Source: a bacterium (GTDB lineage Bacteria; Armatimonadota; Fimbriimonadia; Fimbriimonadales; Fimbriimonadaceae). From it: a DNA stretch of 64,000 bases. Within the stretch, counting starts at the first letter, position 1, and every line of letters starts with the position of its first letter. The notes beneath the pieces were generated by a model that saw nothing but the letters and a program-made list of their open reading frames with translations, ran no database searches and was not told where the DNA came from. The position numbers and the translations under genes are program-made. The stretch spans positions 1,612,001 through 1,676,000 of the forward strand of contig JAIXUN010000002.1 of NCBI GenBank assembly GCA_027483535.1, given 5' to 3'. Below are positions 45,084 through 47,426 of this stretch, in pieces.

Positions 45084-46094
45084 GTGAATGTTTACGAAGA
45101 ATTAAGTGAAGCCTCCCGTAGGACGATTTTAAAGGAACTCCTGAAGGGTCCGCGCAATGTCTCGGAACTCGTGGAGCAAACCGGTTTGAAGCAACCGAAC
45201 GTGTCAAACCACCTTGCTCGCATGCGAGCAAAGGGCATCGTTCGCGCTTCAAAAGACGGAAGGCAGGTTTTTTACAGTATTGCTTCAGCGGACATTGAAG
45301 ACGCGGTTCGATCTTTTCTCCGAGAGGGCGAAGACGAAGTTTTTGAAATCAATATCGCGGAGTCGGCAAAGGAATACGCAAAAGCAGCCATTCGGGGCGA
45401 TGAGGGCAAGTGTGCAGAGATCCTCGATCGCTGTCTCAAGGCACGGCTTACGATTCTTGAGATATTTCAAGACTTCTTGGGCGGAGCAATGGCAACCGTG
45501 GGCACCTGGTACAAGGTGGAAGCCATTGACGAGGCGCAAGAGCACATGGCTTCGGCGATCACGGAACGAATGCTTTCAAGGACGGCACAGTTCTTTGGAC
45601 CACGTTCTCGTAGCGAACGATCCGCTATTCTTGGTTGCGCGCCTCACTCGTGGCACGTCATTGGTCTGCGAATGATCAACGACTATCTTCGGTTTTGCGG
45701 ATGGAAGACCCAGTATCTGGGAGCCAACGTGCCCGTAGACAGTTTCGTTGCCTCGGTGCGAGAGAACAAGCCGGACCTTGTCCTAATCAGTTGCTCGGCG
45801 GCGGACAGCATCGAGTCCACCCTTGAGCTCATTCGGTCGCTCACCGAGCTTCGGTCGACGAAGCAGGATTTCTTGGTCGGAGTAGGCGGAGGAGCCGTTC
45901 TGAACTATCCTCATGCGTTTCGAGACGCTGGTGCGGACTTCTCCTCAAGGGACTTGAAGACGTTTGCGCTGGAAGCGCTCCCGGAAATCGAGCGCGTGGG
46001 AAGAGCAAGTGGCGACTGGAACGATGCCCAGTTGAACGGCCTTAAGCAGAAGGCCACCCTTGACGTTTCTGAGCTTGAAACAGCAAACGACTGA
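45084..46094 (+). CDS. ArsR-type regulator fused to a CarH-like B12-binding domain
   Basis: A 336-residue cytosolic regulator. Residues 5-75 form an ArsR-type winged helix (ASRRTILKELLKGPRNVSEL, QTGLKQPNVSNHLARM). Residues about 95-170 are a B12-binding cap: Trp142 and the pair Glu153-His154 recall the W-x9-EH motif that covers adenosylcobalamin in the photoreceptor CarH, with one extra residue here. Residues about 180-300 are a B12-binding Rossmann domain: His191 in SWHVIGL stands for the lower ligand (the usual D/E-x-H has Ser), and GVGGGAV follows. CarH/LitR proteins use a MerR-type DNA-binding domain, so the ArsR head is unusual. Start is GTG with AGGAAAGG upstream. Could sense light or B12 level. 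Confidence 0.85.
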   Translation: MNVYEELSEASRRTILKELLKGPRNVSELVEQTGLKQPNVSNHLARMRAKGIVRASKDGRQVFYSIASADIEDAVRSFLREGEDEVFEINIAESAKEYAKAAIRGDEGKCAEILDRCLKARLTILEIFQDFLGGAMATVGTWYKVEAIDEAQEHMASAITERMLSRTAQFFGPRSRSERSAILGCAPHSWHVIGLRMINDYLRFCGWKTQYLGANVPVDSFVASVRENKPDLVLISCSAADSIESTLELIRSLTELRSTKQDFLVGVGGGAVLNYPHAFRDAGADFSSRDLKTFALEALPEIERVGRASGDWNDAQLNGLKQKATLDVSELETAND

Positions 46095-46171: not shown

Positions 46172-46525
46172 TTACAGACCCTTTCGAGCTTGTTCGACGA
46201 CTGCTTTGAAAGCGTTCATGTCGGCGATAGCCAGCTCGCTGAGCATCTTTCGGTTGATTTGAATTCCTTGCGAGTTCAAACCGTGGATCAGCTGCGAATA
46301 CTTGATTCCGGCTTCAGCGCACCCTGCGGTGATCCGAACGATCCAGAGGCGGCGGAAGTCGCGCTTCTTTGCTCGGCGGTCTCGGAAAGCGTACTGTCCG
46401 GACTTCATCACCTGCTCATGGGCTCGGCTGAAGACGTTCTTCTTTCGACCCCAATAGCCTGATGCTCTTGCGATGATTTTCTTGTGGCGCTTGTGGCGCA
46501 TTAAACCACGTTTAACACGTGCCAT
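46172..46525 (-). CDS. rplT: 50S ribosomal protein L20
   Basis: Early-assembly protein of the large ribosomal subunit binding 23S rRNA; in several bacteria it also represses this operon. The 117 residues match L20 from ARVKRGLMRHKRHKKIIARA to the end, including GYWGRKKNVFSRAHEQVMKS and RDRRAKKRDFRRLWIVRI. Last gene of infC-rpmI-rplT, the conserved order. GGAGTAATTA precedes the ATG. Confidence 0.97.
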   Translation of the reverse strand: MARVKRGLMRHKRHKKIIARASGYWGRKKNVFSRAHEQVMKSGQYAFRDRRAKKRDFRRLWIVRITAGCAEAGIKYSQLIHGLNSQGIQINRKMLSELAIADMNAFKAVVEQARKGL

Positions 46526-46618: not shown

Positions 46619-46813
46619 CTACATAACGAGAAGACGTCGGATTCTCTTCTTCTCGCCTTGAAAGATCACCGGTTCCCCTTCCAGGGCTCGTCGGGCGCTC
46701 TTTCGCTTATGCAAGAACTGGTGGCTATTGTGCGTCCGTCTCCGGGTGATCTTGCCCGTCCCCGTGATCTTGAACCGCTTCGCCGCCGTCTTGTTTGTCT
46801 TCAGCTTTGGCAT
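46619..46813 (-). CDS. rpmI: 50S ribosomal protein L35
   Basis: Small large-subunit protein. The 64 residues start MPKLKTNKTAAKRFKITGTG and end GEKKRIRRLLVM, as in the L35 family. The start is ATG 46813 (AAGAAAG upstream). Its first 89 nt also encode, in another frame, the C-terminus of IF-3, so the two proteins share DNA and translation is surely linked. Confidence 0.96.
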   Translation of the reverse strand: MPKLKTNKTAAKRFKITGTGKITRRRTHNSHQFLHKRKSARRALEGEPVIFQGEKKRIRRLLVM

Positions 46814-47360
46814 CTTTCTTCTTTGCTCCAGGTTTAGGCGTCAGGATCATGATCATGAGCCTTCCGTCGAGAGCCGGAGCCCTCTCCACGGATCCCGCTT
46901 CGGCGCACAACTCGGCAAAGATTGCTAGTCGCTTCTGTCCAAGTTCAGGGTGAGCGATCTCTCGCGCCCGAAATTGGCAAGTAACTTTAACCTTGTGGCC
47001 CTCTTCCAAGAAGCGAATTGCGTTCTTGGACAAGAAGCCCATGTCGTGCTCCGCGATTCGCGGGCTTATCTTTATACCCTTTACTTCGGCAGAATGCTTC
47101 TTCTTATCCTTTCCGGCCTTGCCTTCCAGATACTTGTGCTTGCCGTAATCAACGATTTTCGCAACGGGAGGGTCCGCCGTCGCGGTGATGAGAACGAGGT
47201 CCAGTCCTTCACCCTGAGCCATGTTTAGGGCTTCGCGTGATGAGAACACTCCAAGCTGCTTGCCCTCAAAATTGATCAGGCGCAGTTCTTTGAATTTGAG
47301 CAGACGCCCATTAATGTCCGGGGCTGGCTCGGGACGGACAGGTCTTCTAAACCTTGCTAT
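46725..47360 (-). CDS. infC: Translation initiation factor IF-3, apparently starting at AUA
   Basis: IF-3 checks start codons on the 30S subunit. The 211 residues comprise the N-domain (ARFRRPVRPEPAPDINGRLL, then LRLINFEGKQLGVFSSREAL), the linker helix and the C-domain (KGIKISPRIAEHDMGFL, FLEEGHKVKVTCQFRAREIAH, GRLMIMILTPK). The start is inferred at ATA 47360: it is 5 nt after GAGGTG, an in-frame TGA lies 12 nt upstream, and the only ordinary in-frame start that is well placed, GTG 47249, would delete the conserved N-domain. IF-3 of E. coli starts at AUU for autoregulation, so a rare start is sensible. The last 30 residues are an acidic extension (KKDAKAEDKQDGGEAVQDHG...) overlapping rpmI by 89 nt. 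Confidence 0.88.
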   Translation of the reverse strand: MARFRRPVRPEPAPDINGRLLKFKELRLINFEGKQLGVFSSREALNMAQGEGLDLVLITATADPPVAKIVDYGKHKYLEGKAGKDKKKHSAEVKGIKISPRIAEHDMGFLSKNAIRFLEEGHKVKVTCQFRAREIAHPELGQKRLAIFAELCAEAGSVERAPALDGRLMIMILTPKPGAKKKDAKAEDKQDGGEAVQDHGDGQDHPETDAQ

Positions 47361-47397
47361 TGTTTCACCTCATTCATACGTTGACGCATTCGACTTA

Positions 47398-47426
47398 AGT
47401 ATAGCTTCGGCAGGGGGGACTGTCAA
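47398..47426 (-). promoter_or_regulatory. Housekeeping promoter of infC-rpmI-rplT
   Basis: On the minus strand: TTGACA (complement of 47421-47426), 17-bp spacer, TATACT (complement of 47398-47403). This is the best sigma-70-type promoter in the window. Start near 47391, leader about 31 nt, holding GAGGTG. Confidence 0.85.

Follow-up and report, generated by a model that had tools for sequence, protein, structure and literature searches.

The question raised by this locus is where translation of infC, the gene for initiation factor IF3, begins, and what the short leader ahead of that start may contribute to its control. The gene lies in the window, i.e., the whole 64,000-nucleotide stretch of DNA analyzed here, from an organism of the genus Fimbriimonas (family Fimbriimonadaceae, phylum Armatimonadota). 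A preliminary description of the window had proposed that infC starts at AUA and that IF3 controls its own production through this codon. That interpretation is sound, given the conservation of the start and the established E. coli scheme for IF3. The AUA start is genuine, but such a start is commonplace for infC and is not new. What the preliminary description missed is a less usual feature, a short AUG-initiated upstream open reading frame (uORF) in the leader, which ends on the AUA. The coordinates are collected in Table 1.

TABLE 1 Features of the infC region of the window
Feature	Position	Strand	Remarks
rplT (L20)	46172..46525	-	Domain match
rpmI (L35)	46619..46813	-	Start lies inside infC, giving an 89-nt overlap with its 3′ end in a different frame
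infC (IF3)	46725..47360	-	211 aa, from ATA 47360 to stop; N-terminus conserved in relatives
uORF stop TAG	47357..47359	-	Its T and A also belong to the ATA start (A-UAG overlap)
uORF ATGCGTCAACGTATGAATGAGGTGAAACAATAG (MRQRMNEVKQ*)	47357..47389	-	Runs through the Shine-Dalgarno sequence; arrangement conserved
infC start codon ATA	47358..47360	-	Sequence and conservation among relatives
Shine-Dalgarno GAGGTGA	47365..47371	-	4 nt before ATA; anti-Shine-Dalgarno found in genome
Small leader hairpin ATGCG-TCAA-CGTAT	47376..47389	-	Predicted fold, z -2.4
Promoter-like TTGACA, 17 nt, TATACT	47398..47426	-	11/12 matches

infC of the window starts at AUA

The sequence leading into infC reads TGA GGT GAA ACA ATA GCA AGG, and the frame is open from 47369 to 46725. 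As the preliminary description had it, an in-frame stop lies four codons before ATA 47360, 5 nt separate the end of GAGGTG from this ATA, and GTG 47249 follows 37 codons downstream with ATG, GTG, and TTG absent in between. The IF-3 homology that it had noticed upstream of GTG 47249 is borne out by a match to IF3_N at residues 22 to 85 counted from the ATA (E 6e-22), of which a start at GTG 47249 would remove residues 22 to 37, and by conservation of the protein from the aligned Ile onward. IF3_C matches residues 92 to 176 (E 3e-29). The product is thus a two-domain IF3, and infC is the sole IF3_N match in the whole genome, where the anti-Shine-Dalgarno (anti-SD) sequence GATCACCTCCTT occurs four times.

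Aligning the infC starts of relatives, the check that had been suggested, placed ATA, ATT, or ATC at the same codon in every family member examined, and the relatives keep the stretch I-A-G-F-R-R-P... rather than an unconserved one with ATG elsewhere. A start at ATT 47315, a CTG, or GTG 47249 is very improbable. It would fit the fact that PF05198 matches only from residue 22 and that in 10/40 held-out genomes of the family the ATH is followed within a few codons by an in-frame ATG; however, conservation begins at the ATA codon, the SD spacing is conserved, and the gene of the window has no ATG at that place. On the sequence evidence, infC almost certainly starts at AUA 47360. An odd initiator tRNA was considered and rejected, as the tRNA survey, which was nonexhaustive, found one initiator-like tRNA-Met with anticodon CAU.

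The operon order is infC-rpmI-rplT. The overlap between infC and rpmI (46725 to 46813) has counterparts of 35 to 134 nt in all 29 measurable loci of the order, a long overlap being present in 0/12 other loci of the phylum and one of at least 30 nt in 1/54 named loci. Adjoining rplT is a convergent gene (45084 to 46094) in which an ArsR-type HTH is fused to B12-binding domains. No Rfam leader for infC-rpmI-rplT, the L20 leader included, scored above the gathering score in the window, where a tRNA was the only match.

infC start codons across relatives

infC was present in 79 of the 85 family genomes, the other six having no IF3 match, and its start was ATA in 60, ATT in 11, and ATC in 8. The 86 leaders of the family and its sister family had ATA in 65, ATT in 13, and ATC in 8. 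Within these genes, ATA is uncommon as an internal Ile codon (127/850, versus 65/86 at the start), and its use as a start is therefore not mere Ile codon usage. GAGGTGA usually lies 6 nt upstream of the start in relatives, and nearly all of a 41-genome sample of the order keep the Ile codon and the SD; G027 resembles a GTG start, and G025 is ambiguous. GTG is the likelier infC start in both G027 and L009.

Among 69 named loci of other phyla, ATT was found in 26, ATC in 24, and ATA in 19. The start counts accept only ATH and ACG, and loci with no start by this rule were dropped (11/80 named loci, 1/16 other-order loci, and 12/57 phylum loci outside the family). A codon-blind check, which considered the in-frame codons correctly placed after the best SD (match of at least 6) and excluded loci with shorter SD matches (17/41 in the order, 21/70 in the phylum sample, and 25/80 named loci), gave ATA, ATC, or ATT in 22/24 loci of the order, 44/49 of the phylum sample (13 of whose 70 loci are family members), and 51/55 named loci, with ATG at that position in 0, 0, and 1, respectively. 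In three genomes of the phylum, L156, L293, and L162, two of them of one genus, the infC start is replaced by ACG, preceded by an SD-like site, with neither ATH nor an ordinary start seen there. We know of no explanation for the choice among AUU, AUC, and AUA by an infC. Non-AUG infC starts are widespread, and the new part is a uORF, predicted to be near-leaderless, that stops on the start codon.

A short uORF spans the Shine-Dalgarno sequence

In the window, the uORF has 10 codons, starting from an AUG, with a second in-frame ATG at 47377. From the promoter-like element, transcription is predicted to start at about 47390 to 47391, 1 to 2 nt before the uORF ATG, giving a predicted infC mRNA leader some 30 nt long. 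Both uORF AUGs fall within the predicted hairpin, whereas the majority of leaders with a uORF have no such structure.

A uORF was defined as an ATG within 45 nt whose frame is open through the SD and stops from -2 to +20. This rule was fixed on the first 38 family genomes, where it identified a spanning AUG uORF in 30 (shuffled mean 6.1, maximum 12 in 300 rounds), and then applied to held-out genomes, from which L256 was dropped. The excess was repeated there, in 28/40 (shuffled 5.3, maximum 11), or 28/41 when G198, which has no uORF, is included. A stricter definition gave 62/86 (shuffled 17.1, maximum 31 in 1,000 rounds), i.e., 62/87 leaders of the Fimbriimonadaceae and the sister family with G198 counted. 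Among leaders less than 75% identical, the uORF was kept in 53/74. The sister family contributed 5/7, plus its single held-out member, and the uORF was absent from the members examined of another family, f2.

That the uORF might be a general feature of infC was rejected, its frequency being at chance level in other phylum members (2/45 versus shuffled 3.1) and in the named loci of other phyla (6/69 versus 6.7). The rpsT leaders likewise had no excess (2/25 versus 1.9). The uORF frame changes often, with no fewer than 21 transitions between three states on the IF3 tree, indicating that the pattern was not inherited as a single leader. A conserved leader peptide was also discarded, since the uORF peptides differ except for the residues encoded by the SD.

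By promoter prediction, the first spanning ATG lies 7 to 15 nt after the -10 element in 45/62 uORF leaders. The -35 element is a poor match to TTGACA (3/6 or fewer) in 35/86 leaders and one leader has no -10 in range, so the 5′ ends are uncertain. Initiation close to the 5′ end is plausible in this clade because the family rpsT (L262 to L291) is mostly without an SD and has its ATG shortly after its -10. In this sample of 30 of the 81 genomes with rpsT (25/30 loci gave a start, five being dropped), the pattern suggests a near-leaderless mRNA for a ribosomal protein, and starting at an AUG behind a short leader seems to be native to this clade.

The uORF avoids the infC frame and stops at or near the infC start

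Relative to infC, 38 of the 89 leader ATGs are in frame 1, 47 in frame 2, and only 4 in frame 0, the infC frame, which is closed by the TGA of the SD. The binomial probability of this avoidance is 3.6e-11, a value that, like the other uORF p values, treats the genomes as independent although they are related; in less redundant leaders, the count was 4/77. In each of the 62 uORFs, the stop codon is no more than 14 nt from the infC start, whereas the remaining open frame in these genomes has a stop that close (within +14) in 20/62, with all 42 discordant cases pointing one way. The stop falls on the start codon itself (+1 or +2) in 39/62.

The two frames reach this position differently. Frame-1 uORFs, found only with ATA (31/31), all stop at +1 on the AUA (31/31), which requires AUA plus a purine, and all 31 comply. 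Frame-2 uORFs all stop within +14 (31/31) and are the only ones in ATT/ATC genomes (16/16), the stop being at +2 in 8/10 AUU genomes and at +5 or +11 in AUC genomes. For a frame-1 uORF, the stop can come only from AUA plus a purine, which would explain why AUA is used and not AUU or AUC. In a test paired on the IF3 tree, the association between frame and codon had four supported pairs, too few for significance, and 0 contrary. A programmed frameshift from uORF into infC was rejected, because uORFs occupy both other frames (31 and 31) and would require opposite shifts.

Leaders without an AUG uORF

An AUG uORF was missing from 24/86 leaders by the stricter rule, 22/86 by an alternative rule, and also from G198; it is therefore not essential for AUH infC starts. 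In the window's own genus, 8/20 genomes have no AUG uORF reaching the infC start; G007, read as Fimbriimonas ginsengisoli, is without the AUG uORF. Of the 22 leaders lacking an AUG uORF by the alternative rule, 13 contain a frame that opens with GTG or TTG and ends on the start or at most 11 nt from it (a raw count). The 24 include 10 from a Fimbriimonas set with a hairpin adjoining the SD. Eleven leaders of this set, chosen by eye, were folded, all with z below -1, and two of them also carry a uORF. Overall, uORF-less leaders had more structure, with a mean z of -1.8 (n = 24) against 0.0 (n = 61) for those with a uORF (p 1e-4), a difference that was not significant without the eye-picked leaders (p 0.11). 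Compensatory changes in the hairpin were seen by eye on the folds; the MAFFT alignment did not register its arms.

A model for IF3 self-control and its alternatives

We propose that the infC mRNA begins 1 to 2 nt before the AUG opening the 10-codon uORF, and that ribosomes would start at this near-leaderless AUG, translate across the infC SD, terminate on the UAG built from the AUA plus the next base, and re-initiate at the AUA with the SD already beneath them. Leaderless initiation, re-initiation, and a non-AUG start would then act in series, and infC translation would fall steeply as IF3 rises, since excess IF3 inhibits all three steps in E. coli. There, IF3 overexpression cuts re-initiation almost threefold (PMC2268962), and excess IF3 inhibits leaderless mRNAs (PMC9031893) and noncanonical starts (PMC2268962, PMC5472188). 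From the anatomy of the leader and the analogy with E. coli, we lean, if only just, toward this reading. Translation of the uORF, coupling of the two frames, and action of IF3 at each step are what we infer from its conserved arrangement, which looks like an undescribed tie of IF3 production to IF3 supply.

The uORF could be a bystander to ordinary control of the E. coli type, in which IF3 rejects its own AUA on the 30S complex. This we regard as unlikely. It is in keeping with the wide occurrence of AUH infC starts lacking a uORF, the 69 named loci having a spanning ATG at chance frequency, and with the uORF-less genomes of the window's genus; however, it would predict neither the avoidance of frame 0 (4/89) nor the clustering of stops (62/62), nor the repeated excess in held-out genomes. 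A slightly less likely possibility is that the uORF is a decoy whose AUG competes with the AUA, so that with plentiful IF3 the AUG is chosen, elongating ribosomes cover the SD, and infC expression is lowered. uORF control is known for eukaryotic eIF5, to which such a decoy would be a bacterial parallel. The uORF does cross the SD and begins with the codon favored by IF3, but a decoy has no need of a stop so close to the start (at most 14 nt away in all 62), and the inhibition of leaderless starts by excess IF3 (PMC9031893) would weaken a near-leaderless decoy. Least probable of the three, in our judgment, is protection of the 5′ end, with a poorly initiating AUA mRNA shielded from decay by a ribosome on the uORF or by a 5′-terminal hairpin. 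The greater structure of uORF-less leaders would agree with it; against it, that difference fades once the eye-picked leaders are excluded, and frame avoidance and stop position are left unexplained.

The re-initiation model has counterpoints of its own. The influence of IF3 on re-initiation in E. coli is smaller when an SD is present (PMC2268962), as it is at the AUA site here; low IF3 concentrations are reported to stimulate leaderless translation (PMC9031893); and the leader of the window has a predicted hairpin over both uORF AUGs. Extended to the Fimbriimonadaceae and the sister family as a whole, re-initiation from a leaderless uORF, a stop built on AUA or AUU, and IF3 self-repression at three steps, with the AUG uORF, where lost, being replaced by either a hairpin or a uORF opening with GUG/UUG, is a more tentative proposal, in which our confidence falls a little short of even. 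If it is true, initiation fidelity, re-initiation, and leaderless starts would jointly let IF3 sense how much of it is available. The clade would offer an explanation for the use of a particular codon, since AUA followed by a purine is a weak start and a stop at once, and its natural variants, with frame 1 or 2, no uORF, or a hairpin, lend themselves to a direct test.

Comparison with known systems

Work on non-AUG genes has reportedly been carried out by Gvozdjak and Samanta (cited in PMC9845219). Among the open-licence PMC papers searched, the titles, abstract openings, and passages seen contained no description of an infC uORF that ends at or near a non-AUG start codon. infC is reported to start at AUC in Streptomyces and at AUU in E. 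coli (PMC5472188). The E. coli gene is alike in its non-AUG start behind an SD and in presumed repression by IF3, but there the codon is AUU, whereas here it is AUA, in a short leader with an AUG uORF ending on the start. The infC of Staphylococcus aureus reportedly has the same AUA codon with an extended SD and a Ribo-Ret signal (PMC13009471); a uORF, present here, is not mentioned in the accessible part of that report. Leaderless translation (PMC9031893) is comparable in that an AUG is predicted a few nucleotides from the 5′ end without a preceding SD; in contrast to leaderless mRNAs, the leaderless frame here is a uORF of another gene and the 5′ end is predicted. Termination-reinitiation at ATGA/TGATG junctions (PMC6728339) likewise involves a stop/start overlap with the SD inside the upstream frame. 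It differs in that the start here is AUA (AUAG/AUAA) or AUU (AUUA followed by A or G) and in that the upstream frame is a uORF of 6 to 17 codons and not a gene.
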